Below, piece after piece: positions 9,807 to 27,140 of a DNA stretch of 64,000 bases. The DNA lies in contig JAEUOR010000002.1 in NCBI GenBank assembly GCA_016790635.1, forward strand, positions 124,001 to 188,000, written 5' to 3'. This DNA is from Burkholderiales bacterium (GTDB lineage: Bacteria > Pseudomonadota > Gammaproteobacteria > Burkholderiales > JAEUOS01). The notes beneath the pieces were generated by a model. That model had not been told where the DNA came from. It saw only the letters and a list, made by a program, of their open reading frames with translations, and searched no databases. The position numbers and the translations under genes were made by a program. Each line of letters begins with the position of its first letter. Positions within the stretch are counted from its first letter, which is position 1.

Positions 9807-10673
9807 TCATCCGCCGCTGGCCGCCCCGTTACGGCGGCGAAACTCGGCGCAGGGATCGGGGCGTACATGAGCTTCGGTGGCGATCTGCCGGTCGTAGGCG
9901 CCGGCAGCCTCGATTGTGCCGGCTTCGGTAAAGCCCACCACCCAGGCGGGCTTCGCACCCAGGCGCGCAAGCCACACCGGCACACCGAAGTCGCGGCGCA
10001 CGTGGCCGTTGCCGGCGATCAGCACTGCGCCGGTCGCGCCCCGGTCGTGCAGTGCGAGGGCCATCGCGGCATCGCGTGCCATCTGCGCGCGCGCCATGGC
10101 CGGCAGCAAGGTGCGGGGCAAGGCATCGCAGTGACCGACGCGGACCGCTTCTTCGATGGCGGCGACGACTGCCGGCGGCAGTGGGGCATGAAGTTCAAGA
10201 CGCGCGAGCTCGGCGGACGAGAACGCCGCGGCAATCCCTTCGCGAACCACCCGCTGCGCGTCGGCGCGCGAGACGTTGACCGCGATGAGCGGCAGGTCGT
10301 ACTGCAACGCGAGGGCGACGAATGGCCGGTAGAAAACCCAGTTCCAGGCGCTGCGCTCCGGCGTGGCCTGCGCGATCAGATAGGCGGCGTCGCGCGGGCG
10401 TTCGCGCCGTGCGCGTTCGATGTCCGCCTGGCGCTCACGGTCGAATTGCTCCATCAGGAGCGCTGGCCTGGACGACGGGTCTGTCGCCAGCGCGGTGGCC
10501 AACGCTTCGGCACGCAGGCGGTGGTGGTGCGGGTTGTCGTGCATCTCGCCCAGAAGGACCACCCGGTGGCGCATCAGATCGGCAGACAGCCTGGCCGAAT
10601 CGGAACTGCTGGTGGTGGCGCAGCCGGCAAGAAAGAGGCTGGCTGCGGCGAGCAGCGCGCTCCCTGTGCGCAA
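9807..10673 (-). CDS. ChaN/DUF399-family lipoprotein, probable heme-binding
   Basis: The family is recognised by GEMHDNPHHHRLRAEAL near the N-terminus, the LLMEQFDRERQ segment and the C-terminal VLIAGNGHVRRDFGVPVWL. In Campylobacter ChaN the same fold binds heme. I place the start at TTG 10673 (288 residues), which gives a lipoprotein signal MRTGSALLAAASLFLAGC with the lipobox Cys 18. A CTG at 10682 overlapping the upstream stop is an alternative. The gene follows bacterioferritin by 5 nt on the same strand, so the context supports iron or heme handling at the membrane. Confidence 0.82.
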   Translation of the reverse strand: MRTGSALLAAASLFLAGCATTSSSDSARLSADLMRHRVVLLGEMHDNPHHHRLRAEALATALATDPSSRPALLMEQFDRERQADIERARRERPRDAAYLIAQATPERSAWNWVFYRPFVALALQYDLPLIAVNVSRADAQRVVREGIAAAFSSAELARLELHAPLPPAVVAAIEEAVRVGHCDALPRTLLPAMARAQMARDAAMALALHDRGATGAVLIAGNGHVRRDFGVPVWLARLGAKPAWVVGFTEAGTIEAAGAYDRQIATEAHVRPDPCAEFRRRNGAASGG

Positions 10674-10678
10674 GTGCC

Positions 10679-11158
<480 letters not shown>

Positions 11159-11194
11159 TGGGATGGTCCGGTTGTTGGTAAGCGAATCTGAATG

Positions 11195-11416
11195 CTAAAG
11201 AGGCCGCGGGTTTGCGGCAACCCGGCCGCGCACTTCAAGTCTAGCGACTGGTCTGGGCCTTGCATCGTCGAATATTTCCTTGGCCAGCACTGCGCAGCGC
11301 CCGCATTGCTGAGCGATGCCCAGATGCACTGCCATTTCGCGGAACGACGCGCAGCCATCACCCGCGCAGGCGCGGATGGCGCGATCAGAGACGGGGTTGC
11401 AGAGACAGACGATCAT
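11195..11416 (-). CDS. bfd: Bacterioferritin-associated ferredoxin
   Basis: A 73-residue BFD-like [2Fe-2S] protein with cysteines at 4, 6, 38 and 41 (CLC and CGRC), the family arrangement. It is known to dock on bacterioferritin and pass electrons to release stored iron. It is the first gene of bfd-bfr-chaN and reads away from tonB. The intergenic region holds a Fur-box-like sequence, so iron starvation probably induces it. Confidence 0.93.
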   Translation of the reverse strand: MIVCLCNPVSDRAIRACAGDGCASFREMAVHLGIAQQCGRCAVLAKEIFDDARPRPVARLEVRGRVAANPRPL

Positions 11417-11480
11417 TGGCGCGACTGGTGTCAGGACTCCGAAGTGTCAATGCTAACGGGTCCCAATTGAAAATGCAATT

Positions 11481-11499
11481 GATACGCATTATCATTATA
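11481..11499 (-). promoter_or_regulatory. Fur-box-like operator between bfd and tonB
   Basis: Read on the minus strand this is TATAATGATAATGCGTATC, which matches the left part of the Fur consensus GATAATGATAATCATTATC over 11 consecutive bases. It lies 64 nt before bfd and 90 nt before the chosen tonB start, so one site could control both directions. Binding is inferred from sequence only. Confidence 0.65.
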
Positions 11500-11588
11500 C
11501 CTGTAATTGACCCCACGCGGCTTCTACAAGGGGTCGTCCGCAGTTGCCGGGGCTGTTATTCTTGCAACTGGATTTCATAAGCACCCCT

Positions 11589-12305
11589 GTGGCTGCTATC
11601 ACTGTCTTGAGGCCATTCGATTCCGCGCGCTGGACCGGCATTGCGGTCGCGCTTGCGCTGCATGTCTTGGCGGCGCTGCTCATCTTCAGCTACGCACCCG
11701 CGCGCGAAGCGCTGCGCGTCATCGCGCCGGTGATCGTCGACATCATCACCCCACCCACAGCGGCGCCGCCGCGCGTGGTGCCGGAAACACCGCGTCCGCC
11801 GCCGCCCCAGGCGCCGCCGCCGCGTCCGCGCGCCGAGGTGCGCCCGCCGCCTACCGCACCTGCGAGTTCCGCGCCGGTATTGGCAACCGAAGCGCCGGCA
11901 GCGCCACCGGCCGCCGCGCCTGCGCCCGCTCCGCCGCGGCCTGCACCTGAGGCACCCCCCGCGGTCGCTTCGCCGCCGGTGGCGATCGCCCCGCCGACCG
12001 CGCCGCCTCCGCCCGTCCCAATCACTCCCCCTGACTTCAAGGCCGATTACCTGGACAACCCGGCGCCGGCTTATCCGCCACTGTCGCGCCGCATGGGCGA
12101 GCAGGGGCGCGTGGTGTTGCGGGTCATGGTCGATGCGAGCGGATTGCCCTCGAGTGTCGAAGTCCGTACCAGCAGCGGCTCGGAGCGCCTCGACCTGGCC
12201 GCGCTCGAAGCGGTGAAGCGCTGGAAGTTCGTTCCCGCGCGACAGGGCGAGCGCGCCGTGCCGGCGCAGGTGCTGGTCCCGATTTCATTCAATTTGAAAG
12301 GCTGA
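11589..12305 (+). CDS. tonB: Energy transducer TonB
   Basis: The protein has one N-terminal transmembrane helix (TGIAVALALHVLAALLIFSY), a Pro/Ala-rich periplasmic spacer of about 100 residues and a C-terminal TonB domain (PAYPPLSRRMGEQGRVVLRV, then LDLAALEAVKRWKFVPA). It couples the proton-motive force to outer-membrane receptors, of which two are encoded nearby (zinc and heme). I chose GTG 11589 (238 residues); a TTG at 11544 would add 15 residues and a later TTG is possible. It leads tonB-exbB-exbD, with only 2 nt to exbB. Confidence 0.92.
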   Translation: MAAITVLRPFDSARWTGIAVALALHVLAALLIFSYAPAREALRVIAPVIVDIITPPTAAPPRVVPETPRPPPPQAPPPRPRAEVRPPPTAPASSAPVLATEAPAAPPAAAPAPAPPRPAPEAPPAVASPPVAIAPPTAPPPPVPITPPDFKADYLDNPAPAYPPLSRRMGEQGRVVLRVMVDASGLPSSVEVRTSSGSERLDLAALEAVKRWKFVPARQGERAVPAQVLVPISFNLKG

Positions 12306-12307
12306 AC

Positions 12308-13066
12308 ATGCAGCAGTCCCTGGGCTTTGCCCACTTCCTGGCGCAGGCCGACGGTGTCGCCCGCGCCATCCTGGTGATCATGTTGCTGATGTCGCTGACG
12401 ACCTGGTACCTCATCATCGCCAAGTCGTTGCGCAACATCCTGATCCGGCGCGAAAGCGCGCGCTTTCTCAAGGAGTTCTGGCAGGCGCGCGACCTCGACG
12501 CCGTGGCGCGCGGGCTTGCCGCAGCGCCGCCGCAGGAGCCGTTCGGACTCCTGCTGCAGCGCGGCCTGCGGGCAATCGAGCAACATCGCACGCGTGGTGC
12601 GACGCGCCTGGCCGAGTCCGGCGGTGCCGACGAGTACCTGACCCGCGCCCTGCGCCGCGCCATCGATGAGGCCGCGGCGCGCGCCGAGTCCGGTCTGACC
12701 GTGCTGGCCTCGGTGGGCAGCTCGGCGCCCTTCATCGGCCTCTTCGGTACCGTCTGGGGCATCTACCACGCGCTGATCGCGATCGGGCTTTCCGGACAGG
12801 GCACGCTCGACAAGGTCGCCGGGCCGGTCGGCGAGGCGCTCATCATGACCGCTTTGGGGCTGGCGGTCGCGATTCCCGCGGTGCTGGCCTACAACGCCTT
12901 CACGCGCCACAACCGGGTCGTCGCCGCGGAGCTGGACGGCTTTGCGCACGATGTCTACGCGTTCATGTCGACCGGGCATCGCGATGAAAATGGCGGCCAG
13001 GCGGGCGACCGTCAAGCCGCCGGCGCAGCGCGGCAGGTCCCTGCCGCGGCGACGAAGGGAGCCTGA
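12308..13066 (+). CDS. exbB: ExbB (MotA/TolQ/ExbB proton channel family)
   Basis: A 252-residue inner-membrane protein with three hydrophobic helices: an early one (ILVIMLLMSLTTWYLIIAKS) and a later pair around ASVGSSAPFIGLFGTVWGIYHAL and ALIMTALGLAVAIPAVLAYN. These are the conserved TolQ/ExbB signatures. With ExbD it forms the proton channel that energises TonB. Its stop is 1 nt before the exbD start, so translation is coupled. Confidence 0.95.
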   Translation: MQQSLGFAHFLAQADGVARAILVIMLLMSLTTWYLIIAKSLRNILIRRESARFLKEFWQARDLDAVARGLAAAPPQEPFGLLLQRGLRAIEQHRTRGATRLAESGGADEYLTRALRRAIDEAAARAESGLTVLASVGSSAPFIGLFGTVWGIYHALIAIGLSGQGTLDKVAGPVGEALIMTALGLAVAIPAVLAYNAFTRHNRVVAAELDGFAHDVYAFMSTGHRDENGGQAGDRQAAGAARQVPAAATKGA

Positions 13067-13067
13067 C

Positions 13068-13487
13068 ATGGCCTTCGGCGGATTCGACCGTTCCGCGCAT
13101 GGCACGCCGCAGGCGGAGATCAACATGATCCCGCTGATCGACGTGATGCTGGTGCTGCTGGTGATCTTCATCGTCACCGCGCCACTCCTCACGCACGCGG
13201 TCAAGATCGACCTGCCGCGCGCATCATCGAGCGCCAACCAGACCAAGCCCGACAATGTGCAGCTGGGCATTTTCGCCGACGGGCGGGTGTTCTGGAACGG
13301 CAGTGAGATCGACGCGAAATCGCTGCCGGAGCGTTTCGCCGAGGCGGCACGCATGCAGCCGCCGCCGGAACTGCACTTGCGTGCCGAACGCGCAGCGCGC
13401 TATGAACTGGTCGCGCAGACCATGTCCGCGGCCGCCAAGGCGGGAATTCAGCGCATCGGCTTCGTCACCGATCCCGGCGAGCGCTGA
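13068..13487 (+). CDS. exbD: ExbD (biopolymer transport protein)
   Basis: This 139-residue protein has a short cytoplasmic N-terminus, a single transmembrane helix with the essential aspartate (INMIPLIDVMLVLLVIFIVT) and a periplasmic domain. The ATG at 13068 follows GAAGGGAG at normal distance; a longer in-frame extension overlapping exbB is unnecessary. It completes the TonB-ExbB-ExbD energiser. A GCCGC-AA-GCGGC hairpin (13490-13501) follows without a T-tract, and the Fur-family gene begins 72 nt later. Confidence 0.95.
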   Translation: MAFGGFDRSAHGTPQAEINMIPLIDVMLVLLVIFIVTAPLLTHAVKIDLPRASSSANQTKPDNVQLGIFADGRVFWNGSEIDAKSLPERFAEAARMQPPPELHLRAERAARYELVAQTMSAAAKAGIQRIGFVTDPGER

Positions 13488-13559
13488 AGGCCGCAAGCGG
13501 CGCTCGCTTCAGGAGCGGCGGCGCAGTAAACTTGCGCGGTTCTTCCCTGGAGGCACCGC

Positions 13560-13961
13560 ATGGAACGCTATAGCCGGCAGCGCGACGCGATATTCGCGGC
13601 GATCTCGGCTGCCGGCCGCCCGCTTTCTCCGCAAGAGGTCCTGGCAGCGGGGCGTGGCGAAGTCGCCTCGCTGAGCATCGCCACGGTCTATCGCGCCTTG
13701 AAGACCCTGACCGAGGAAAAGTGGATTCGCGCAGTCGAACTGCCGGGCGAGCCGGACCGCTACGAGGTCACTTCGCTTGGCGAGCATCATCATTTCAAAT
13801 GCCGCTCATGCGGGCGCGTGTTCGACGTGTTCCACGATTTTGACAGCCGCAAGCTGCCTGCGCCGCCGGAATTTCATGTTGACCGGCTCGACATCCTGCT
13901 CTACGGTCGCTGCAACGAATGCCCCGGCCCGAGCGGCGGGCGCACGCGCTCGCGCGCCTGA
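13560..13961 (+). CDS. Fur-family metalloregulator, probable Zur
   Basis: A 133-residue repressor with an N-terminal winged helix (SIATVYRALKTLTEE is the recognition region). The metal-binding half has His76-78 (HHH), Cys81/Cys84 (CRSC) and Cys118/Cys121 (CNEC), a structural zinc site. Fur, Zur and PerR cannot be separated by motif alone. The neighbours are a ZnuD-type zinc receptor and PEP-CTERM proteins, one resembling a Zur-repressed family, so Zur is favoured. The preceding tonB-exbBD group also fits Fur. The start has a good CTGGAGG ribosome site. Confidence 0.85.
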   Translation: MERYSRQRDAIFAAISAAGRPLSPQEVLAAGRGEVASLSIATVYRALKTLTEEKWIRAVELPGEPDRYEVTSLGEHHHFKCRSCGRVFDVFHDFDSRKLPAPPEFHVDRLDILLYGRCNECPGPSGGRTRSRA

Positions 13962-14114
13962 AGACCTCTCGCCGCCGCGCGCGGCGACCCTGCCTTTCGC
14001 GCTGGTTTCAGTCCGCCAAGTCCGTAGCGCGACGGCGCATCGCTACGCGCTGCGCGGCCGTTCTCTGCGTCGCGCTTTCAAGTGTCGGCAGGGCGCCGGA
14101 ACGTCAGAGCTAGT

Positions 14115-14855
14115 TCAGGCGCTCTTGCGGCGCCTACGCGCTACCGTGCCGACCAGCGCCAATCCTGCCAGCAACATGGCGTAGGCCTCGGGCTCGGGTA
14201 CTGCGAGCGCATGGACTGCGTTCTCGAAGTTCGCGGCTGACAGGCCGTGATTCATGACGAACAGGAATGGATCGCTATCCTGATAGCCGGTCGCTGACAT
14301 GCCGTCGACTCCGCGCGACGTCAAGGCCAGGGTGACCATGTAGGCGCCGACGGGGGTGGGTACCGGGCCTGCGTTGCTGATCAGAAAATCGATATGGGTA
14401 TGGATGCCGCCACCGGCGTCGGCTGCGTCGAGCACACCCAACGGGTTGGTCACACCCATGCCATTGATGAAGGTCTGCCCGCCAAACGCGTCCTCGATGG
14501 TAAAGGTCTTGCCTGCCGCGGGCGCACCCCAGGCCGAGCCGTTCCAGAATTTGAGTACGCTGCTGGCCTGGTACCACAACTGCTGTCCCGCCAGGAATGT
14601 CCCGTCCTCCATCTCGAAGCCAGGATCATCGGTCTTGTGTGGACCGCCAAACAGGTCACCGAAATTGCCTTCGTAAATCTTGTAGCCGGTACTGAACTGC
14701 GTCTCGGCGTTGCCGCCTAGCGTGATTTTGCCGGCGTTGAGAGTGATCTGAACATCGCCAGCGTGTTGTGCGGAAACGGGCGGGGACAGCAGCAGGGCGG
14801 CGGACGTGAATACCGCTGCCACAAGGGCGGAGTGACGGGCGGAGGGACGAAGCAT
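14115..14855 (-). CDS. PEP-CTERM protein with HTHID motif, paralogue of the 17085 gene
   Basis: This 246-residue secreted protein has a signal peptide (cut after PPVSA) and a C-terminal exosortase sorting signal: VPEPEAYAMLLAGLALVGTVA followed by RRRRKS. The mature part shares GDxxGGPxKTDDPGF, an FW near the middle, an HxHxD block (IHTHIDFLI), GAYxVxLxL and a final GLSAANFENA segment with the protein at 17085-17948. I know no named function. The His/Asp block could bind metal. It is divergent from the ZnuD-like receptor across 91 nt, which suggests shared zinc-responsive control. Confidence 0.82.
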   Translation of the reverse strand: MLRPSARHSALVAAVFTSAALLLSPPVSAQHAGDVQITLNAGKITLGGNAETQFSTGYKIYEGNFGDLFGGPHKTDDPGFEMEDGTFLAGQQLWYQASSVLKFWNGSAWGAPAAGKTFTIEDAFGGQTFINGMGVTNPLGVLDAADAGGGIHTHIDFLISNAGPVPTPVGAYMVTLALTSRGVDGMSATGYQDSDPFLFVMNHGLSAANFENAVHALAVPEPEAYAMLLAGLALVGTVARRRRKSA

Positions 14856-14910
14856 GATGGTTCCTGGCTGATATGAAAGGGAGCTATGGGGCCGTCTTGA
14901 TCTAATCTAT

Positions 14911-14928
14911 AATGAGAAGTCATTCGCA
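14911..14928 (+). promoter_or_regulatory. Candidate Fur/Zur-type operator upstream of znuD
   Basis: AATGAGAAGTCATTCGCA contains the dyad AATGA-GAAG-TCATT and resembles a Fur box with one inserted base. The same AATGAGAA-N7-CGCA pattern recurs at 18058-18075 before the third PEP-CTERM gene (12 of 18 bases identical). It lies between two divergent genes. Whether Zur or Fur binds is not shown. Confidence 0.45.
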
Positions 14929-14946
14929 GTTTGAGGGTTCGCAGTC

Positions 14947-17064
14947 ATGTTGTCAAGCGGGCGCTGGCGCACCGCCATGCTGCTGGCATGCGCCTTGTGG
15001 TCCGCGGCTGCGCTTGCCCGCGATGCCGCGCCGGGCGCGGCCGGCGAGACGGAGCTCAAGGAAATCGAAGTACGCGAGAGCGCGCCCGCAGACGCGCCGC
15101 GTGAGCCGGTGCGCCCCACCTTGCGTCTGCGCATCGACGAGTTGCGCGAGCGTGGCGGCGAGACCTTGGGCGAGGCGATCGCCGACGAGCCCGGCGTGGC
15201 CAATTCGACCTTCGGCCCCGGTGTCGGTATTCCGGTAATCCGCGGCCTGACCGGCAGCCGCGTGCGCGTCCTGTCCAATGGCGCTGCCACGCATGACGCG
15301 GCGACTTTCAGTCCCGACCATGCGACCAGTGCGGAAGCCATGCTGGCCGACGAGGTGCGCATCCTGCGCGGGCCGGCGACCATCCGCTACGGCGGCGGTG
15401 CGATCGGCGGTGCGATCGACGTGATCGACAATCGTATTCCGCGCCGCCCGCCGCAACGTCCTGTCAGTGGCGTGCTGCAGGGACGCCACAATTTCAATGG
15501 CGACGTCGATGCCGCTTCGTTCAAGTTCGACGCCGGCTCGGGTCTGGCGGCGCTGCATGCCAGCGGCTTCACGCGCCGTCGCAACAACGCGGTCATTCCC
15601 GGCTGCGCCGTCGATGGTGAAGCGATCCGCGCGCAGTTCGGCCTCGTCAGCACGCGCAACACCTGCGGCTACCTCGACAACACGCGCGCGCGCGCCGACG
15701 CGCTGACCGTAGGCGGCGCATGGTTCGGCAGCGCCGGCAGCCTGGGCCTGGCGACCTCGCGCCTGACCAACAACTACGGCATACCGCCTTCGGCCGGGCA
15801 TTCGCACGGTGACGGCGCGGTGCGCATCGACCTGGCCAACGAGCGCCATGACCTGCGCGCCGAAGTTTGGGGCGAAGGCGAATGGATCGACGTGGTGCGT
15901 CTGGAACTGGGGCGCACTCGCTATCGCCATCACGAACTCGAAGGTACGCGCATCGCGACCACCTTCGAGAACCGTGTCACGGAACTGCGCGTCGAGGTCG
16001 AACACCGTCTCGGCCGGCGCGTCTCGGGCACTCTGGGCTGGCAGTCCGTCGACCGCGATTTCTCGGCCGTCGGCGCCGAGGCGTTCATCCCGCGTACCGC
16101 GACCGATACACGCGCGCTGTACCTGACGGAGCGCATCGATCTGGGTGGTGGATTGCGCCTGGAAGCGGCCTGGCGGCAAGAGCGCCAGGGCACTCAAGCT
16201 CAGCCGCAGCGCACCGTCGATCGTCGCTTGTTGACCTTTCCGTTGCGCACGTTTCGCATCGAGTCGCATTCGCTGTCGGCGAGCTGGGAATTCGCCGAAA
16301 AGGCCAGCGTTTCATTTGTGCAGTCGCGCGGACGGCGCGCCCCCGACGTGCACGAACTGTATTCCTTCGGCCCGCATCTGGCCACCAACACCTTTGACAT
16401 CGGCAGCTCCAACTTGCGCGCTGAAACCATGCGCGGCAAGGACTTGATCCTGGATGTCGACCGCGAGCGCGTGCGTGCGCACGTCGCCGTATTCGAGAAC
16501 TCCGCGACCGACTTTCTCTTCCAGCGCAGTGCCGGCAACTTGTTTTTCGACACCGACGAGGCACGCTTTCGCGTCCGATGCGTGCGCCTGGAGGACTGCC
16601 TGCCGGTGACCCGCTACGACCAGGCGGACGCGCGCTTTCGCGGTTACGAGGTCGATCTGGCACTGCGTCTGCGCGGTTACCTGCCCGGTGTCACCGAGTT
16701 GTCGGTATTCGGCGATCGGGTGCGCGGGCGTTTCCCGGCACGCTTCGAGGATGTGCCCCGCCTGCCCACGCCGCGCTATGGGGTCGGCATCGCCAACGTC
16801 ACTGGCGCTTGGACCTTACGCATGCGCTACACGCGTGTCGAAGGCCAGGCCTATCCCGGCGCCAACGAGACCATGACGCGCGGATACGAACTGCTCAACG
16901 CCAGCGCAGCGTGGCGCTGGCGCGGCGGCGGGCGTGATGCCACTCTTTTCATTCGGGGTCGCAACCTGCTGGATCGCGAGATTCGCAACGCGACGTCTTT
17001 CCTGCGCAACTTCAGCCCGGAAGCCGGGCGCGCCGTGGAAATCGGCGCGGAGGTGCGTTATTGA
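14947..17064 (+). CDS. znuD: TonB-dependent zinc receptor, ZnuD-like
   Basis: This 705-residue outer-membrane protein has a signal peptide (ending about ALARDA), a plug with GIPVIRGLTGSRVRVLSNGA, the ZnuD-type FSPDHATSAEAM and EVRILRGPATIRYGGGAIGGAIDVID stretches, and a 22-strand barrel ending in Tyr. An extracellular-loop segment NNYGIPPSAGHSHGDG (His-rich, about residue 280) closely resembles the zinc-binding loop of Neisseria ZnuD. It would import zinc, or possibly heme, powered by the TonB-ExbBD encoded just upstream. It is flanked by two paralogous PEP-CTERM genes. I see no znuABC in the window. Confidence 0.87.
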   Translation: MLSSGRWRTAMLLACALWSAAALARDAAPGAAGETELKEIEVRESAPADAPREPVRPTLRLRIDELRERGGETLGEAIADEPGVANSTFGPGVGIPVIRGLTGSRVRVLSNGAATHDAATFSPDHATSAEAMLADEVRILRGPATIRYGGGAIGGAIDVIDNRIPRRPPQRPVSGVLQGRHNFNGDVDAASFKFDAGSGLAALHASGFTRRRNNAVIPGCAVDGEAIRAQFGLVSTRNTCGYLDNTRARADALTVGGAWFGSAGSLGLATSRLTNNYGIPPSAGHSHGDGAVRIDLANERHDLRAEVWGEGEWIDVVRLELGRTRYRHHELEGTRIATTFENRVTELRVEVEHRLGRRVSGTLGWQSVDRDFSAVGAEAFIPRTATDTRALYLTERIDLGGGLRLEAAWRQERQGTQAQPQRTVDRRLLTFPLRTFRIESHSLSASWEFAEKASVSFVQSRGRRAPDVHELYSFGPHLATNTFDIGSSNLRAETMRGKDLILDVDRERVRAHVAVFENSATDFLFQRSAGNLFFDTDEARFRVRCVRLEDCLPVTRYDQADARFRGYEVDLALRLRGYLPGVTELSVFGDRVRGRFPARFEDVPRLPTPRYGVGIANVTGAWTLRMRYTRVEGQAYPGANETMTRGYELLNASAAWRWRGGGRDATLFIRGRNLLDREIRNATSFLRNFSPEAGRAVEIGAEVRY

Positions 17065-17065
17065 A

Positions 17066-17083
17066 GGCCGACGGGCGTCGGCC
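17066..17083. terminator. Hairpin between convergent znuD and PEP-CTERM genes
   Basis: GGCCGAC (17066-17072) and GTCGGCC (17077-17083) form a perfect 7-bp stem with a 4-nt GGGC loop in the 20-nt gap between convergent genes. It has no clear T-tract on either strand, so termination is plausible rather than certain. Confidence 0.5.
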
Positions 17084-17084
17084 C

Positions 17085-17948
17085 TCAGGCACCGGCCTTG
17101 GTTTTTCGCGCGGCGGTCCTGGCGACCAGCGCGGCTCCCAGCGCGAGCATGACCCAAACCGCCGGTTCAGGCACCGCAGGAAGAGGCGGCGTAGCGAGTG
17201 AAGCGTAGGCCGTCTGGAATTGCGCGCTTGTGAGCCCGTAGTTGAACAACAGGCTGAAGGGCGTCGAATCCGCGTAGCCGGGTGCCGCGAGGCTGAGCCC
17301 GATCAGGTAGGCACCATTGGCAGGCGTGCCGCCGGTCTTGCCGATCTCCCAGTCCAGGTGTGCATGGAAGGAGCCATTTGGCGCCGCTTCGTCGATCAGC
17401 GCCGGGTTGGGGCCGCTGATGCCGGTGCCTGAAATGCGTGTGCCCTGCTCATAGAGCGTGAATTGCGCTGCCAACGCGGGATTGCAAAGGAACTCGTCTC
17501 CGATCTCGCAGAACAGGTAAGCAGTGGCAATGTCGGTCGGCACCGCGCCGTCCAGGCGCACGAACGTGCCTGCCGCGGCGCTGCTCCAGGCGGGGGCGGA
17601 CGGCGTCCAGAATTGCAAGGTGCCGATACCGCGCGCATACACCAGCGTGTCCGCCGGGAGCGCGCCTGCAAAACTCTGAAAGCCGGGATCGTCGGTCTTG
17701 CGCGGGCCGCCAGCGAAGTCGCCGAAATCGGCGGTGTAGAGGTTGCGGTTTGCCAGGTAGTCAAAGCCGAATCCGCCGGCCGGTGGAACCCCGCCATGCG
17801 CAAAAAAGCCGGCCGTGAGCCTACCCGCCGATTGGCCGACCAGCACATCGTAGCCGGCGGCGAACGCCAGGGAGGCCGGCACGGACAGGACCGCTGCCAG
17901 CACGCAGGAAGTGAGTCGGCGGCCGGACGGTAGGAGAGCTTGCAACAT
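17085..17948 (-). CDS. PEP-CTERM protein with HAHLD motif, paralogue of the 14115 gene
   Basis: A 287-residue exported protein with a signal peptide (cleaved near AFA-AGYD) and a C-terminal VPEPAVWVMLALGAALVARTAARK sorting signal. It shares with the 14115 gene the blocks FGDFAGGPRKTDDPGF, QFW, HAHLDWEI, NGAYLIGLSL and NYGLTSAQF. Unlike its paralogue it has a two-cysteine insert (CEIGDEFLC). Function is unknown; metal capture at the cell surface is my inference from the His/Asp block and the ZnuD neighbour. It is divergent from the 18162 gene. Confidence 0.8.
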   Translation of the reverse strand: MLQALLPSGRRLTSCVLAAVLSVPASLAFAAGYDVLVGQSAGRLTAGFFAHGGVPPAGGFGFDYLANRNLYTADFGDFAGGPRKTDDPGFQSFAGALPADTLVYARGIGTLQFWTPSAPAWSSAAAGTFVRLDGAVPTDIATAYLFCEIGDEFLCNPALAAQFTLYEQGTRISGTGISGPNPALIDEAAPNGSFHAHLDWEIGKTGGTPANGAYLIGLSLAAPGYADSTPFSLLFNYGLTSAQFQTAYASLATPPLPAVPEPAVWVMLALGAALVARTAARKTKAGA

Positions 17949-17999
17949 GGGAGCACCTGGAGAGAGTCAAAGAAAGTCTACCATCTTGCGAATGCATGC

Positions 18000-18075
18000 G
18001 CGTTATCCAGAATGCATCAATCGTCTTGACGGGAACTATTAATGCAACTAAGATGCAAATGAGAACAATAACGCA
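18000..18075. promoter_or_regulatory. Candidate operator region between two divergent PEP-CTERM genes
   Basis: This AT-richer spacer carries an inverted pair, GCGTTAT (18000-18006) and ATAACGC (18068-18074), and the AATGAGAACAATAACGCA element (18058-18075) that matches the one before znuD. ATGCAT-like repeats lie between. Coordinated metal-responsive control of both flanking genes is inferred. Confidence 0.4.
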
Positions 18076-18161
18076 ACAACGGCTGCGACGCGCCTTTCTG
18101 CAGTGTCGTGACGCAGCGCTTGGCGCACATCCCAGTGAACGAATCTCCGGAGATACGACCC

Positions 18162-18989
18162 ATGTTTTCCTTTCCACGCCTGGCCGCCGCCGTCCTCATC
18201 ACGGCCTCAATGTCTGCGCAAGCCTTCGTACGCCACGACGAGGGCATCGGCTTTTACGTCGGTTTTGACAATCGCGCCGTGTTTCCCAGTGGGGGCTACG
18301 CCGGTCTGCCCAACCCGAATCACAATCGCCTTTCGCTCCTGTTCGACCATGGGGATCACTTCCATGGCATCGGCACCTACAGTTTCGTCGGTCCGGCGCC
18401 GCATCCGGGGGTGCTCGACACCAACAGCAACAACCGTATCCCGGAGACCTACACCGGCGATCCTCCGCTTTCACTTACTGCGGGCAGCGGGCTGTATGCG
18501 GGAAGGATGCGATCCAGTGTCGGCGCCTCCGAGTACAGTCACCTTGGAATCGCCTCGATCCAGACCTTGTCGAGCTTTGCTCCTGGAACCGATGAGAACA
18601 TCCTGTTCACGAGCAGCGGCAACCGCTGGTCCGGCAGCCTTACCGGTGTCAATGTCGGGCTGCAACTGCTCAATGCGACACCGGGCCTCAAGATCGGGAC
18701 GGAGGCCGTGCTCGACCTCTTCGCGTTGAGCAGCACCATCCTCCTGGGCCATGGCAACACCTTCGAGTTCAAGCCGGTGTTTTCCGTGGCGGCAGCTGCG
18801 CTGCCCGGCACCTACACGGCGGAATTCAAGCTGGTCAATCTCAATCCGGCGTCGCCTTACGGTGACTCAGGGCGCTTCTACTTCGATTTCGCGGTTGCGG
18901 CGCCAGTGCCCGAGCCGTCCGCGTACCTGATGATGCTCGCCGGCCTGATCTTCATGGGAACGGTCGCGGCGCGTCGTCGTCGCATGTAG
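18162..18989 (+). CDS. His-rich PEP-CTERM protein, resembles the Zur-repressed all3515 family
   Basis: The 275-residue protein has a signal peptide (cut after SAQA) and a PVPEPSAYLMMLAGLIFMGTVAARRRR sorting tail. The segment NRLSLLFDHGDHFHGIGTY packs three His and two Asp together, with a further PHPG. From memory this is the hallmark of a PEP-CTERM family named after Nostoc all3515 and described as Zur-repressed. ATG 18162 has a CCGGAG ribosome site; a GTG at 18108 is in frame. It probably binds zinc outside the inner membrane when zinc is scarce. Confidence 0.8.
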   Translation: MFSFPRLAAAVLITASMSAQAFVRHDEGIGFYVGFDNRAVFPSGGYAGLPNPNHNRLSLLFDHGDHFHGIGTYSFVGPAPHPGVLDTNSNNRIPETYTGDPPLSLTAGSGLYAGRMRSSVGASEYSHLGIASIQTLSSFAPGTDENILFTSSGNRWSGSLTGVNVGLQLLNATPGLKIGTEAVLDLFALSSTILLGHGNTFEFKPVFSVAAAALPGTYTAEFKLVNLNPASPYGDSGRFYFDFAVAAPVPEPSAYLMMLAGLIFMGTVAARRRRM

Positions 18990-19006
18990 CCTGTTGTCTG
19001 CAATTT

Positions 19007-19036
19007 CCACCCGCGCGCCGCCCAGGCGCCGGGTGG
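19007..19036. terminator. Strong hairpin between PEP-CTERM gene and hmuV
   Basis: CCACCCG (19007-19013) pairs with CGGGTGG (19030-19036), and the inner GCGCC/GGCGC arms extend the stem around a 5-nt loop. It sits between convergent genes. No T-tract follows, so its efficiency as an intrinsic terminator is uncertain. Confidence 0.5.
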
Positions 19037-19057
19037 GTTGGTCCTGTCGCGAATCGT

Positions 19058-19870
19058 TCAGGTTCGCGCGTCGGTGGCCGCGGCAATGAGGGGAGTGCCG
19101 CCCAACGGGTGGCGCAACACCCGGACCCGGATGTCGAATATCTCTTCGACCTGATTGCGGGTCAATACTTCGCGCGGCGTGCCCTGCGCGGCGACTGCGC
19201 CAGCACGCATCAGCAGCACGCGGTCTGCGTATTGCGCCGCGAGATTCAGGTCATGCAGCACGGCGATGACACCGACATCGCCCTGGGCTTGCGCAAAGCG
19301 GCGGGCAGCGGCCAGCGTCGCGTGCTGGTGTTTCAGATCCAGCGCCGCGGTGGGCTCGTCGAGCAGCAAAAGGCGAGTCAGCCGCGTGCCGGCCATTTCG
19401 CAAGGCGTCCACAACTGCGCCAGCACGCGCGCAAGCTGGACGCGCGCTTTTTCGCCGCCGGAAAGGGTCGTGAAGTCGCGGTCGGCGAGATGTGCCGCGT
19501 CGGTCAGGGCCAGCGCGGCCATGGCGATCTGCCGGTCTTCGCGCGCGAGCACGCCTGCGCGGTGCGGATAGCGGCCGAACAGCGCCACCTCCAGCCCGGT
19601 GAAGGCGAACGCCAGTCGCGACTCCTGCGGCAACACCGCCAGCATGCGGGCGCGTTCCTGCGCGCGCCAGCGATGAAGCGGGCGGCCGTTGAGGACGATA
19701 TCACCCTGCGCGGCTTCGATTTCGCCTGCCATGAGGCGCAGCAGGGTCGATTTACCGGCGCCGTTGGGGCCGGCCACGGCGACGACTTCACCCGGCGCGA
19801 CGCTTAGCGAAACGGCGTCCACCAATGCACGGCCGGCGGCACGGAAGGTGAGCGCGCGCAAGGAGAGCAT
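19058..19870 (-). CDS. hmuV: Heme ABC transporter ATP-binding protein
   Basis: A 270-residue ATPase with Walker A GPNGAGKS (about residue 35), signature LSGGEKARVQLAR, Walker B LLLLDEPTAALD and the switch His in VLHDLNLAAQYADR. It energises import of heme from periplasm to cytoplasm with HmuU and HmuT. The ATG at 19870 overlaps the hmuU stop by one base, so they are translationally coupled. It is the last gene of the minus-strand heme operon. Confidence 0.93.
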   Translation of the reverse strand: MLSLRALTFRAAGRALVDAVSLSVAPGEVVAVAGPNGAGKSTLLRLMAGEIEAAQGDIVLNGRPLHRWRAQERARMLAVLPQESRLAFAFTGLEVALFGRYPHRAGVLAREDRQIAMAALALTDAAHLADRDFTTLSGGEKARVQLARVLAQLWTPCEMAGTRLTRLLLLDEPTAALDLKHQHATLAAARRFAQAQGDVGVIAVLHDLNLAAQYADRVLLMRAGAVAAQGTPREVLTRNQVEEIFDIRVRVLRHPLGGTPLIAAATDART

Positions 19871-20964
19871 CAAGCGCCCCAGGCACGGCGCTGCGCAAGG
19901 AGCAGGCCCAAGAAAAACGGTGCGCCGATCAGCGCGGTGAGGATGCCGATCGGCATTTCCGCCGGCGCGGCAATGGTGCGGGCGACCGTGTCTGCCGCGA
20001 GCGTCAACGTTGCGCCCAGGAGTGCCGAACCCGGAATCACGATCCGGTGGTCCGGCCCGGCGACGAGCCGCAGCATGTGCGGCGCGACCAGGCCGATGAA
20101 GCCGATGATGCCGGTGAACGCCACCAGGGTTCCGACCGCGAGCGCGGTGGCGACGATCACACTGATCTTGAGGCGCTTCACGTCCACCCCCAGGTGCCCG
20201 GCCTCGGCTTCGCCCAGGAGAATGGCATTGAGTGGCCCGGCGGTGCTCCAGGCCAGCGCCACCGCCAACATTGTCGCGGGCGCGCACAAGGCGATCACTC
20301 TCCAACTGCTGCCGGCCAAGGACCCGAGGCTCCAGAAAGTGATGTTGCGCAGCTGCTCATCGGTGGCGATATAGGTGAAGAGCCCGATGCCTGCGCCCGC
20401 CAGCGCGTTGACCGCGATGCCGGCCAGGAGCATGATTGGCAGCGACAGGCGGCCGTCGCGGGTGGCGAGCGTGTAGATGACAACGGTTACCGCCAGTCCG
20501 CCCAGAAAAGCCGCCAGCGGAAGGGTGAAGAGCCCCAGAGCACGCGAGAGACCGGGCAGGAGCGTGGCGCCCAACACGATCACGAACGCCGCCGCCAGTG
20601 CCGCCCCGGAGGACACGCCGATCAGCCCAGGGTCGGCCAGCGGGTTGCGAAACAGTCCCTGCATGGCGGCGCCCGCCGCGGCCAGCCCGGCGCCTACCAG
20701 CACCGCCATGAGTACGCGCGGCAGGCGGATGGCGTGGAACACCGTCTCCTGCTGTGGGGCGAAAGTGATTCCAGTGTCGATGCCGACCGCATACAGCAGG
20801 ATGGACAGGACCTCACGCGGAGCGATCGCGAATGCGCCGGTGCCGGCGGCGACCAGGATCGTGATCATCATCAAGCCCGTCAGGGCGCACAGGACGAGCG
20901 CTTTGCCAGGCCGGCGCGCCGCAGTGGCAGCACGCGCTCCGTGCTGTTGGAGTACCGCACTCAC
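19870..20964 (-). CDS. hmuU: Heme ABC transporter permease (FecCD family)
   Basis: The 364-residue protein has nine or ten hydrophobic helices and the FecCD hallmarks RLPRVLMAVLVGAGLAAAGAAMQGLFRNPLADPGLIGVSSGA and GFIGLVAPHMLRLVAGPDHR (quoted as separate short blocks: RLPRVLMA, NPLADPGLIG, GLVAPHMLR). I take GTG 20964 as the start; it lies 28 nt after the hmuT stop, and longer extensions overlap hmuT. It forms the membrane channel of the heme importer. Confidence 0.92.
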   Translation of the reverse strand: MSAVLQQHGARAATAARRPGKALVLCALTGLMMITILVAAGTGAFAIAPREVLSILLYAVGIDTGITFAPQQETVFHAIRLPRVLMAVLVGAGLAAAGAAMQGLFRNPLADPGLIGVSSGAALAAAFVIVLGATLLPGLSRALGLFTLPLAAFLGGLAVTVVIYTLATRDGRLSLPIMLLAGIAVNALAGAGIGLFTYIATDEQLRNITFWSLGSLAGSSWRVIALCAPATMLAVALAWSTAGPLNAILLGEAEAGHLGVDVKRLKISVIVATALAVGTLVAFTGIIGFIGLVAPHMLRLVAGPDHRIVIPGSALLGATLTLAADTVARTIAAPAEMPIGILTALIGAPFFLGLLLAQRRAWGA

Positions 20965-20992
20965 GGCTGCGTGACCATGTCGGGCGCGCTGC

Positions 20993-21844
20993 TCACGTGC
21001 CGCTCCTGATGTGCGTGGCCACCTCGCGCACCGCCTGCGGCAGGCGCGGGCCGAAACCCAATAGGTACAGCGCATCGGGCGCGGCATAGCGGCGTTGTTT
21101 GGCGGCTGGCGACAACGCCAGTCCGGGACGCTGCCAGAGCTTGTCGACGCCGCCGACGGCGTCCAGGCCCTGCTGGGTGAGGAGCACGAAATCCGGCGCG
21201 GCCGCGATCAAGGCTTCATCGGCCAATGTCTTGTAGCCGGTGTAGCCGGACACCGCGTTGACGCCGCCGGCGTAGCGGATCATCGCGTCGGCGGCGGTAC
21301 CCTGGCCGGAAGCCATCAGGCCGCCGGAGGCCGAGTGCAGCAGCAGGAAAAGCACGCGCGGCTTTTTCGGCGCGCGCCGCTCCTCGGCCGCGACGTAGGC
21401 TTGTGTGGATTGCCAATCGCGCGTCAGCGAAGAGTCAAGCTCCGCGCCGCGCGCGCTCAATCCCAGCGCGTTGGCAACCACGCGCACCTTGTTGCGCACC
21501 TCTTCAAAGCTATGATCGGCGCTGACGGTCTCGAAGCGCACGCCGGCGCCTTTCAACTGGCTGATCACCGTCGGCGGCCCGGCCTCGCTGGTCGCAAGCA
21601 CCACGGTGGGCCTGAGAGACAAGAGGCCTTCGGCCGCCAACTGGCGCTGGTAGCCGACTTTGGGCAATTTTTGCGCCTCGGGCGGAAAGAGGCTGGTCGT
21701 ATCGACGCCGACCAGACGGCCTTCCGCACCCAACGCGTAGACGATCTCTGTGATCGCGCCGCCGACCGCGACCACGCGCGGCACCTGCGCATGTGCCGTG
21801 CAGGCCATGAGGAGCGCCGCGAGAAAAAGGGATCTCGACATCAT
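20993..21844 (-). CDS. hmuT: Heme/hemin ABC transporter substrate-binding protein
   Basis: A 283-residue periplasmic binding protein of the cluster-8 (BtuF/HmuT) type. It has a signal peptide ending AHA and the typical RVVAVGGAITEIVYALGAEGRLVGVDTTS start. Conserved Tyr in VGYQRQLAAEGLLSL and YTGYKTLADEAL are at the usual heme-contact regions. The start ATG at 21844 follows CCGGAGG at 6 nt; a second ATG is the next codon. It passes heme to HmuUV. A 143-nt spacer with GC-rich inverted repeats separates it from hmuS. Confidence 0.92.
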   Translation of the reverse strand: MMSRSLFLAALLMACTAHAQVPRVVAVGGAITEIVYALGAEGRLVGVDTTSLFPPEAQKLPKVGYQRQLAAEGLLSLRPTVVLATSEAGPPTVISQLKGAGVRFETVSADHSFEEVRNKVRVVANALGLSARGAELDSSLTRDWQSTQAYVAAEERRAPKKPRVLFLLLHSASGGLMASGQGTAADAMIRYAGGVNAVSGYTGYKTLADEALIAAAPDFVLLTQQGLDAVGGVDKLWQRPGLALSPAAKQRRYAAPDALYLLGFGPRLPQAVREVATHIRSGT

Positions 21845-21987
21845 GATGAACCTCCGGTGATTGACGGTCGGCCGGCAAAGCGGGGAATGACTCCCGCTCC
21901 GCCGCCGAGACCGCGTCATGCGAATCCGGCTTCCCGGTCGGACCCGCGCGACGACCCCCCTGCGCATCCGCGCGCAGGCGAATCCGT

Positions 21988-23055
21988 TTACAAGCGAGGC
22001 AGGGCCGCGACCAGATCGCGCCAGGCCGGCAGCTCGGGGACGCCGGGCTTGCGCTTGCCGAAGAACATGGCGATGGTTTCTCCTTCGCCGTCGAAGAGTT
22101 CGAGGGAGGTGACTGTGCCCTCGGTGGTCGGCTTTTGCACCACCCAGCTTTGGGCGATACGGTCCGCGCGCAGGTGCAGGTTGAATGCCGGGTCGAGCAC
22201 GTTGACCCAGTCGCCCATGACCTTGATGTTGACCACCGGCCCGGTGTGGATCTGGATGATGCCGGGGTTGCCGACGAAGCACATGATCGGCAGGGCCGCA
22301 GCGGCCGCGGATTCGAGCATCGCCAAGGTGGCGCCGTGGCCGACCCGGTAGGCGAAATCGTCGCCGACCAGGCGCAGTGCCTGGGTGCGCGCGACGCTGA
22401 ATTTCTTGAGCAGGCCGAAGAACTCGTGGGTGTCCTTCATTCCGGCCCAGGCCAGCTGCAGGCCATCTACGTCGATCTCTGCGTCCGGGCGCGGCGTCGT
22501 CTTGACCGCTGCGGGTATCACGCTGATGCCGGCGGACTGCTCGGCCGCGGTCCAGTCGTCCACCAGCCTGGTGTACTCCTCGAGTGAAGATTGCGGCTTG
22601 AGAAACACCTTGTGCACCGCCGCTCCGGCGGCGTCGTAGATCTGCAGGCTCCTCTGCGGCCCGCGCGGCGTGTCTTCGGTGACGGCGAATCCGTGCTTCC
22701 AGTGGCTGTAGAAGATGCGCAGGTCGATGTCCTCGCCCACTACCAGCCCGACATGCCCCTCGTGGCTGGCGTTCCTGTAGGTGCCGACGCGTTCGTGTAC
22801 GACCGACTCGTTGCGCGTCAGCGCCATCACGTCGCCCAGGGTCTCCAGCCGGGCGATCATGGCTGCGTAGTCGCCCTTGAGGCGGATTGCGCCAAAGCCT
22901 TGGTTGCTGCCGACACCGCTGGCAATGACTTCACCTTCGGTGACACCCAAGGCGGCGGCGGCGTCGCGGTTGCGCAGGTTCTTCTCGGCCTTGATGGCAC
23001 GGAAGGCTTCATTGAGGAGCTGTGGATCGGCGCGCAGGTTGACTGGAGCATTCAT
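21988..23055 (-). CDS. hmuS: Hemin-degrading / heme-trafficking protein HmuS (HemS family)
   Basis: This 355-residue cytoplasmic protein has the two-repeat HemS/ChuS architecture. The repeats start near VMALTRNESVVHERVGTY and, in the second half, ALPIMCFVGNPGIIQIHTGPV and WVNVLDPAFNLHLRADRI. Family members bind the heme delivered by HmuTUV and release iron from it. The ATG at 23055 opens MNAPVNLRAD after an AAAGGA ribosome site. It is located between hmuT and a small unknown gene. Confidence 0.93.
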   Translation of the reverse strand: MNAPVNLRADPQLLNEAFRAIKAEKNLRNRDAAAALGVTEGEVIASGVGSNQGFGAIRLKGDYAAMIARLETLGDVMALTRNESVVHERVGTYRNASHEGHVGLVVGEDIDLRIFYSHWKHGFAVTEDTPRGPQRSLQIYDAAGAAVHKVFLKPQSSLEEYTRLVDDWTAAEQSAGISVIPAAVKTTPRPDAEIDVDGLQLAWAGMKDTHEFFGLLKKFSVARTQALRLVGDDFAYRVGHGATLAMLESAAAAALPIMCFVGNPGIIQIHTGPVVNIKVMGDWVNVLDPAFNLHLRADRIAQSWVVQKPTTEGTVTSLELFDGEGETIAMFFGKRKPGVPELPAWRDLVAALPRL

Positions 23056-23153
23056 GGGAAGCGGTCCTTTCGTTGGTGGTGATGCTGGCAAGTGATGCAG
23101 GTGACTGATGCGGTTCGGTGAAAACGGGTTCCGGGGGCGCCTCGGCGGGCGGC

Positions 23154-23447
23154 TCAGTGGATGTCCCGACGAAAGCGGAACAGGCGCGCAGTCGCACGGG
23201 GCGCCGCGTCCTGGTCGCGCAGCATCTCGGTGAGCTTGGCGTCCCATTGCTCGGCCATCTGTGCGCAGGTCTGGCGCAGGATCGGCCCGACCTGGTCGTG
23301 CCCGGCCAGGATTCGCAGGTGACGCAGGATCACCTGCGCCAGACGCGGGCACCCGCCGGAACGTCCGAAGGACGACATCAGATACAGCGCGGCACTGACG
23401 ATGACATCGGGCCGGCCGGGGTCAGCGGGGGCGGTCTTGGCGATCAT
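23154..23447 (-). CDS. Small uncharacterised protein in the heme operon
   Basis: A 97-residue protein with a good TAGGAG ribosome site before ATG 23447, placed 10 nt after the receptor stop and 98 nt before hmuS, so it belongs to the operon. It appears soluble, with no signal peptide. The middle, PRLAQVILRHLRILAGHDQVGPILRQTCAQMAEQWDA (read as helices VILRHLRILAGH and PILRQTCAQMAEQW), looks helical, with single Cys residues. I do not recognise the family. A role in heme handling is suggested only by position. Confidence 0.72.
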   Translation of the reverse strand: MIAKTAPADPGRPDVIVSAALYLMSSFGRSGGCPRLAQVILRHLRILAGHDQVGPILRQTCAQMAEQWDAKLTEMLRDQDAAPRATARLFRFRRDIH

Positions 23448-23457
23448 GAAGGAACTC

Positions 23458-25791: not shown

Positions 25792-25888
25792 GAAGCAGCA
25801 AGCCTTGTCGGTTCGGTGGGAACGATTGGCTGGCTGGCTTCGGAATGTGCTGGAGCGCTCCGGGCTGGCTGGCTGGAAAGAAAGGGAA

Positions 25889-26080
25889 CTACGCGGTCAG
25901 GATCAGCTTTCCGTGCGCGGTAAGTCGCAGCCGGTAGTCGCGGCCTTGGTGGGCGATGATGATTTCATTGCGGCCGCTGAACAGCGCGGCACTGTCGATG
26001 CGTGGCGGGCCTGCGGGGACGGCGGAAGCCGGCGTCGTTCTGACGCCAGCATCCTGTTTGTCCTTCACGCGCCGCTCCAT
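25889..26080 (-). CDS. hemP: Hemin uptake protein HemP
   Basis: From ATG 26080 this is a 63-residue protein whose C-terminal half, RIDSAALFSGRNEIIIAHQG then YRLRLTAHGKLILTA, is the HemP domain (SxxLFxGxxEIxIxHxGxxYxLRxTxxGKLILTK). HemP-type proteins (HmuP in rhizobia and Burkholderia) are needed for heme-receptor expression and may act as regulators. It starts 23 nt after the Fe-binding-protein stop and precedes the receptor by 97 nt, the normal hemP-receptor order. Confidence 0.9.
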   Translation of the reverse strand: MERRVKDKQDAGVRTTPASAVPAGPPRIDSAALFSGRNEIIIAHQGRDYRLRLTAHGKLILTA

Positions 26081-27120: not shown

Positions 27121-27140
27121 GACGTTTCTCGCGGTTGGGA

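Follow-up and report, generated by a model that had tools for sequence, protein, structure and literature searches.

A ZnuD-like receptor and its putative surface zinc-capture partners A, B and ZepA in a Burkholderiales bacterium

A locus in a 64,000-nucleotide stretch of a Burkholderiales genome (the window; Table 1) is probably a zinc-starvation uptake module of the outer surface, in which a ZnuD-like TonB-dependent receptor is served by three partners that capture zinc at the surface, the proteins A, B and ZepA. The basis is computational and consists of the linkage of the genes, a single receptor clade, the conservation of ligands, the positions of boxes, anchors that change among relatives, and one reading frame in which B, an autotransporter and a receptor are joined. 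A preliminary description of the window had reported a Fur-family gene and a ZnuD-like receptor with PEP-CTERM genes on either side within 13560-18989; all of these are present, with five open reading frames at the places given. The module reaches beyond this interval, as tonB-exbB-exbD at 11544-13487 is part of the unit. Homologues of TonB-ExbB-ExbD are also found near the receptor in other loci (L028/L058 and L073) and beside FurW and A in a locus of the same genus (L168). An Rfam search of positions 10000-26000 gave zero matches.

Table 1. Genes and predicted regulatory boxes of the module (positions in the window)
Feature	Position	Strand	Remarks
Predicted Zur-type box (type 2), tonB promoter region	11471..11491		AAATGCAATTGATACGCATTA; 12.6 bits, third-best type-2 in window
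tonB (energy transducer)	11544..12305	+	TIGR01352
Second predicted type-2 box, tonB start	11560..11580		14.1 bits, second-best type-2 in window
exbB	12308..13066	+	PF01618, 116 bits
exbD	13068..13487	+	PF02472, 107 bits
Fur-family regulator (FurW)	13560..13961	+	PF01475, 67.4 bits (cut-off 23.1); Zur role from context only
A protein, PEP1 (PEP-CTERM)	14115..14855	-	TIGR02595, 24 bits (cut-off 16)
Possible type-1 regulator box, divergent A/receptor promoter	14911..14930		best type-1 in window, 10.1 bits
ZnuD-like TonB-dependent receptor	14947..17064	+	aligns to ZnuD 4rdr
B protein, PEP2 (PEP-CTERM-like)	17085..17948	-	paralogue of A; PF07589, 20.6 bits (cut-off 20.7)
Predicted Zur box (type 2), zepA promoter	18040..18060		TAATGCAACTAAGATGCAAAT; 23.4 bits
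zepA (all3515 family)	18162..18989	+	NF040463, 273 bits (cut-off 75)

The grouping recurs in many genomes and is therefore not a product of chance. About 27 complete loci of beta- and gammaproteobacteria have an A and a B next to a ZnuD-like receptor. In a contig scan seeded with a B-only alignment, the five-sequence A/B alignment being too divergent, the receptor was next to B in 20 of the 21 named loci. The sole exception is L067, where B lies beside zepA, and A lies beside the receptor on another contig of the same genome. This locus, together with stray A copies away from the receptor in L169, shows that the partners can lie apart from it. In an unselected sample of the class, 5 of 369 genomes carried A/B, and in all five A and B surrounded the receptor. 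In addition, A/B are present in seven of the eight zepA genomes of the order and in none of three relatives that lack zepA. Neighbours related to zinc, namely COG0523 (ZigA-like), ZrgA/ZrgB and Zur-like genes, are found at A/B loci. The association of the homologues with ZnuD and Zur, on which the preliminary description had staked its reading, held in this survey across genomes. The conserved linkage, the ZnuD ligands, the Zur-type boxes and the ZrgAB and COG0523 neighbours give good support to its proposal of a surface module for zinc starvation.

The receptor aligns over plug and barrel with Neisseria ZnuD (4rdr), which is its sole PDB match at E<=1e-10. It scores 300.9 bits with the ZnuD equivalog model NF038289, far under the cut-off of 950, and for this reason it is named ZnuD-like and not ZnuD. 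The high-affinity zinc ligands of ZnuD are D99, H100, E340 and H499 (PMC4557270), and these correspond in the alignment to the predicted ligands D124, H125, E330 and H477 of the window receptor. Compared with ZnuD of Neisseria and Acinetobacter, the alignment and all four ligands are thus shared, whereas the low model score, the separate clade, the dedicated A/B partners and a loop region with only a short histidine stretch (GHSHGD) set the window receptor apart.

The 25 A/B-linked receptors tested form a single clade (100/99), and all of them keep the four ligands. Among 29 related receptors outside this clade, no A or B was found within the stretches fetched. That A and B accompany one kind of receptor across many bacteria suggests that this receptor obtains scarce zinc from them. 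Alternatively, A and B could be surface or matrix proteins under Zur control that act as a zinc store or buffer, or that stabilise the receptor, with no hand-over, the linkage reflecting shared regulation only. Adjoining genes with shared Zur boxes do often act in parallel, the predicted folds of A and B are generic beta-sandwiches, and their zinc binding and hand-over are putative. However, A and B are tied to this one clade and not to other ZnuD-like receptors, and a fusion of B with the receptor exists, which is more than would be expected from shared regulation alone; this alternative is considered unlikely.

A role in the uptake of haem or haem proteins, with A and B acting like hemophores or as a haem relay, is a still less probable explanation. 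The module abuts a haem-uptake operon in the window, and for that reason a haem or iron role keeps a small share of the probability: on one side, at 19058-25791, it is followed by genes for HmuV, HmuU, HmuT, HemS and another TonB receptor, and on the other side there is a ferritin-like gene, so that hmuTUV, hemS, the haem receptor and a bacterioferritin could together form one iron island. A haem receptor homologue is also located near the L073 locus, and the ZnuD fold resembles that of haem receptors (PMC4557270). Purified ZnuD, on the other hand, does not bind haem-agarose (PMC4557270). At nearly all of the other A/B loci, HmuR/HmuV-like neighbours are missing and zinc genes take their place, and the conserved zinc ligands as well as the fit of the boxes to Zur consensus sequences also argue against haem.

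A and B belong to one family, and as the preliminary description had proposed, the window pair are paralogues (31% identity, E 5e-30). When 21 A proteins were searched against NCBIfam, 21 B proteins against Pfam and the window A and B against both, the matches were confined to portions of the sorting signal and to chance hits, and no further Pfam or NCBIfam domain was recognised. Invariant residues are H31, D34, H152 and H154 in A, and D34, H195 and H197 in B. Of 26 B proteins, 22 have a conserved N-terminal histidine, which is missing from the window B. These invariant histidine clusters may bind zinc in both proteins. AF2 models of A and B (pLDDT 87 and 88) matched only pilin/FimH-like and Ig-like beta-sandwiches, with best Z scores of 6.8 and 6.6; such scores are within the range of common arrangements, and no function was therefore drawn from the fold. 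HxH motifs and near-N-terminal histidines suit copper and nickel too, and TonB receptors for copper, nickel and cobalt exist, so another metal, or a metal-ligand complex, could be the substrate at the histidine clusters. This is highly improbable, as the ZnuD ligand set, the Zur boxes, ZepA, ZrgA and the ZigA-like neighbours all indicate zinc.

Zinc as the substrate is also indicated by the protein encoded at 18162. The preliminary description had assigned it, from its DHGDHFH cluster, to a family that is Zur-repressed in cyanobacteria, and this is borne out by its match to NF040463 ("all3515 family Zur-repressed PEP-CTERM protein"). Its motif H63-G-D-H66-F-H68 fits the H-X2-9-H-[FY]-H motif of ZepA (PMC10957091), the three histidines are invariant in nine aligned relatives, and the C-terminus is a PEP-CTERM signal (PF07589, 26.8 bits, cut-off 20.7). 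When the profiles of A or B were compared with that of ZepA, probabilities of 97-98% resulted, but the PEP-CTERM tail common to these proteins accounts for much of this, so that kinship with ZepA is only a possibility.

In Anabaena, ZepA (all3515) was described in 2024 as a Zur-repressed extracellular zinc-handling protein (PLoS Biol, PMC10957091). The available part of this article already describes Fur-family, TonB-receptor and PEP-CTERM genes as zepA neighbours, proposes hand-over to an outer-membrane receptor as a hypothesis and states that the route of zinc delivery from ZepA is unknown. The window zepA shares with it the NF040463 match, the PEP-CTERM end, the H-x2-H-F-H motif, a predicted upstream Zur box and the neighbouring genes. 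It differs in being tied to one ZnuD-like clade and to A and B, and neither the receptor nor the A/B family is named in that part of the article. The earlier suggestion that the system had not been described thus does not hold for ZepA and its neighbours, but the A/B pair and its tie to one receptor clade appear to be new with respect to the available text.

FurW is a member of the Fur superfamily. No match to the Zur model (NF008646, E. coli type) was obtained at E<=0.01, and its best models are PerR/Fur, all under their cut-offs. Orthologues are found in nine further A/B loci and, at 81% identity, in the same-genus L168. Of the Zur-like regulator described earlier, the family assignment stands, but no model recognises the protein as Zur; from its context, we infer that it may act as one. 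The genome has another Fur-family gene, located next to zrgA outside the window, which is a Zur candidate at least as good.

The box at 18040 far exceeds the maximum of 13.5 bits in 100 simulated windows, and nowhere else in the 5.57-Mb genome is ATGCAANTNANNTGCA matched exactly. When up to one mismatch is allowed, six matches are found genome-wide, including the box at 11471; the four outside the module are in or near unrelated genes. The score of the box at 11560 was reached by no simulated window, and this box coincides with the tonB start or is located slightly within the gene, the position of the start being uncertain. The type-1 box at 14911 is not significant alone, as 20% of simulated windows reach 10.1 bits; at the equivalent place in L168, a 16.4-bit site is present. 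In four gammaproteobacterial loci (L049, L052, L070 and L071), the sequence that best matches the Zur operator of E. coli is just upstream of A. In the beta loci, boxes that agree with the predicted Desulfovibrio Zur site ATGCAACnnnGTTGCAT (PMC545781) are found in module promoters, also in the held-out L165, L166, L168 and L170.

Under low zinc, Zur-type Fur-family repressors would leave the promoters of tonB-exbBD, A/receptor and zepA. A, B and ZepA would be exported to the cell surface, here probably with exosortase processing of their PEP-CTERM ends, and the invariant histidine cluster in each would bind zinc. As dedicated partners of the receptor encoded between them, A and B may catch zinc or take it from ZepA and pass it to the buried receptor site D124/H125/E330/H477, from which TonB-ExbBD would drive it into the periplasm. 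Direct contact of A and B with the receptor, the direction of transfer and the pairing of each Fur protein to its box are likewise what we infer.

TbpA-TbpB and similar systems, in which a TonB receptor works with a partner at the surface, offer a likeness of working only: in both cases a TonB receptor is genetically linked to a surface-anchored partner. A and B differ from such partners in that they have no lipoprotein anchor or detected kinship and that the proposed ligand is zinc. The proposed surface hand-over of scarce zinc to a receptor would be a step of zinc uptake that has not yet been worked out. With a specific receptor clade and two partner proteins named, the question of zinc delivery from ZepA becomes directly testable, and culturable relatives are available in Methyloversatilis, Methylobacillus and Nitrosospira. 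Also, a family labelled in databases only by its sorting tail obtains a function-linked identity.

C-terminal sorting signals like those of other PEP-CTERM/exosortase proteins are present in A and ZepA and marginally in B, the score of A being above and that of B just under the cut-off, and the genome has two exosortase genes (PF09721, 229 and 223 bits). No PEP-CTERM family model includes the A/B domain itself, which is also found on proteins that lack PEP-CTERM: among relatives the anchor may be a PEP-CTERM end, a VPLPA-like end or an autotransporter. The exosortase-anchored layer described earlier fits the window genome but not relatives with VPLPA-like ends or autotransporter fusions. The fusion of B to an autotransporter in some relatives is counted in favour of surface display of B. 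There is an even chance that A and B represent a new family of surface-displayed zinc co-receptors that dock on a dedicated ZnuD-like clade, forming a multi-part receptor that is fed by ZepA and has interchangeable anchors, with one lineage uniting autotransporter and TonB receptor in a polypeptide whose capture domain it displays itself. This last arrangement was seen once, in one Burkholderiales MAG, as a single frame of 2134 aa comprising B, PATR, an autotransporter barrel and a ZnuD-like receptor.

The five genes that the preliminary description had grouped together were all found in the window, and the grouping itself is confirmed. The paralogy claimed for the two further PEP-CTERM genes also holds, since A and B share 31% identity (E 5e-30). 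The only PDB match at E<=1e-10 of the TonB receptor between them is Neisseria ZnuD, although the receptor scores far under the ZnuD equivalog cut-off. The genes tonB, exbB and exbD and the Fur-family gene FurW lie 5' of A, the receptor and B. The source genome, from the same order as the named Burkholderiales MAGs, is a draft of 5.57 Mb in 90 contigs (completeness 89.8%, contamination 5.6%).

Genes of the module and its downstream neighbours, in window positions
Feature	Position	Strand	Remark
tonB-exbB-exbD	11544-13487	+	
FurW	13560-13961	+	Fur family
A	14115-14855	-	paralogue of B
ZnuD-like receptor	14947-17064	+	
B	17085-17948	-	paralogue of A
zepA	18162-18989	+	all3515/ZepA family (NF040463, 273 bits, cut-off 75); ZepA histidine motif present
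Haem-uptake operon	19058-25791	-	immediately after the zinc module; HmuV, HmuU, HmuT, HemS and TonB haem receptor
ABC-type iron-binding protein gene	near 26104-27132		next after the haem-uptake operon

According to PMC10957091, ZepA of Anabaena is a Zur-repressed, zinc-handling exoprotein; proteobacterial zepA genes neighbour Fur-family regulators, COG0523 chaperones, TonB receptors and other PEP-CTERM genes; and it is hypothesised there that ZepA delivers zinc to an outer-membrane receptor. The ZepA part of the system is therefore already published. What seems new is the combination of the A/B family with the receptor clade that goes with it; in the open-licence literature, nothing past PMC10957091 was found that links PEP-CTERM proteins to ZnuD or to zinc uptake, an absence that is weak evidence.

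A and B belong to one family, as their profiles align with each other over the full length (E 3.5e-56). No domain model covers the family: 21 A proteins compared with NCBIfam, and 21 B proteins with Pfam, had only sorting tails and chance matches. In window numbering, H31, D34, H152 and H154 are invariant in all 27 A proteins, and D34, H195 and H197 in all 26 B proteins; 22 of the latter, the window's B not among them, also have a histidine close to the N-terminus of the mature protein. The A protein of locus L052 (5949-7400) has no sorting tail and ends in a long run of His-Asp repeats; the B protein of this locus has Kelch repeats instead. From these His and Asp patterns we infer zinc binding by A and B.

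A scan of named genomes, seeded on the B alignment, yielded 21 loci from Nitrosospira, Nitrosovibrio, Methyloversatilis, Methylobacillus, Methylomicrobium and uncultured relatives. In 20, B adjoins a ZnuD-like receptor or an A gene that itself adjoins the receptor, and A is present in 19 of these, the other (L069) stopping at a contig end. At the exception, L067, B adjoins zepA, and A adjoins the receptor on a different contig of the same genome. Because that scan was B-seeded, an unselected class sample is the fairer test of linkage: A/B occurred in 5/369 genomes, each time around a ZnuD-like receptor. Fisher values are indicative only, with score limits picked afterwards. Complete trios of A, B and receptor number about 27, counting those of G271, G769 and a second G005 locus; a handful of the loci from MAGs could be near-duplicates.

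In a tree of 54 receptors, all 25 A/B-linked receptors fall on one side of a branch (support 100/99). The nearest outsiders are two receptors without A/B, and 27 others are more distant; no A/B genes were present within the stretches fetched around these 29. One of the 29 is the second ZnuD-like receptor of the window's own genome (contig C56, L124), without A/B neighbours. The zinc ligands of ZnuD are D99, H100, E340 and H499 (PMC4557270), and all four are conserved in 25/25 A/B-linked receptors. It was also considered that the locus serves haem uptake, a haem operon coming right after the zinc module in the window; however, this operon is absent from nearly all other A/B loci, many of which have zinc genes instead. 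The zinc interpretation of the preliminary description is largely supported by this comparative evidence. The parsimonious reading is that ZepA, A and B would capture zinc at the cell surface and hand it over to the ZnuD-like receptor, whose zinc uptake TonB-ExbBD would power.

The window's genome carries two exosortase genes. The A proteins of gammaproteobacterial relatives have VPLPA-like tails, and at L050 and L051 B forms a fusion with an autotransporter. In G005 (L165:4223-10627, minus strand), one open frame is 2134 codons long, contains no N and has an even codon composition. It joins B and PATR repeats with the barrel of an autotransporter and a ZnuD-like receptor that is complete, and includes a linker, repeated three-fold, that resembles TonB-box regions. 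The C-terminus of an autotransporter barrel and the TonB-box end of a receptor both face the periplasm, so the topology of the fusion is coherent. As a single frame in a single MAG, it could be an assembly accident; it fits the linkage of A/B with the receptor.

At the gammaproteobacterial loci L049, L052, L070 and L071, the E. coli Zur operator finds its best match directly upstream of A. Two palindromes were found in the beta loci. The type-2 palindrome, TAATGCAACTAAGTTGCATTA, agrees with ATGCAACnnnGTTGCAT, the Zur site predicted for Desulfovibrio (PMC545781). With a matrix derived from other genomes, the predicted type-2 site in the zepA promoter (18040) scores 23.4 bits, against a maximum of 13.5 across 100 simulated windows; the second- and third-ranked sites are both at tonB. 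The zepA site is also the genome's sole exact match to ATGCAANTNANNTGCA in a pattern search. It again ranks first in the window with the published consensus alone; there 10/60 simulated windows hold a match as good, so the weight lies on where the site sits and not on how high it scores. At four held-out loci (L165, L166, L168, L170), the best type-2 site falls within module promoters. The type-1 palindrome, ATTGATAACGCGTTATCAAT, was found in FurW-carrying loci. At 14911 the window has a weak type-1 site (10.1 bits, a score reached in 20% of simulations), but the equivalent position in L168, of the same genus, has a site of 16.4 bits.

FurW lies close to A or ZepA in the window, as do its orthologues in nine other loci; a further orthologue, in L168 (81% identity), sits between exbD and A, with zrgA and zrgB also nearby. 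By sequence, FurW is nearest to PerR/Fur models. The genome's other candidate regulator is a Fur-family gene adjoining a zrgA homologue on contig C46, and relatives of its product occur alongside type-2 boxes. In our reading of these sequences, FurW would putatively pair with type-1 sites and the C46 protein with type-2 sites. At L010:1453-3189, zrgA-like and ABC ATPase genes come after a Fur-family gene; this is probably the other zinc regulator locus of the genome. Two Fur-family Zur-like and two COG0523 genes (L030:410-4446) share a 7.3-kb contig with zepA and several strong type-2 palindromes.
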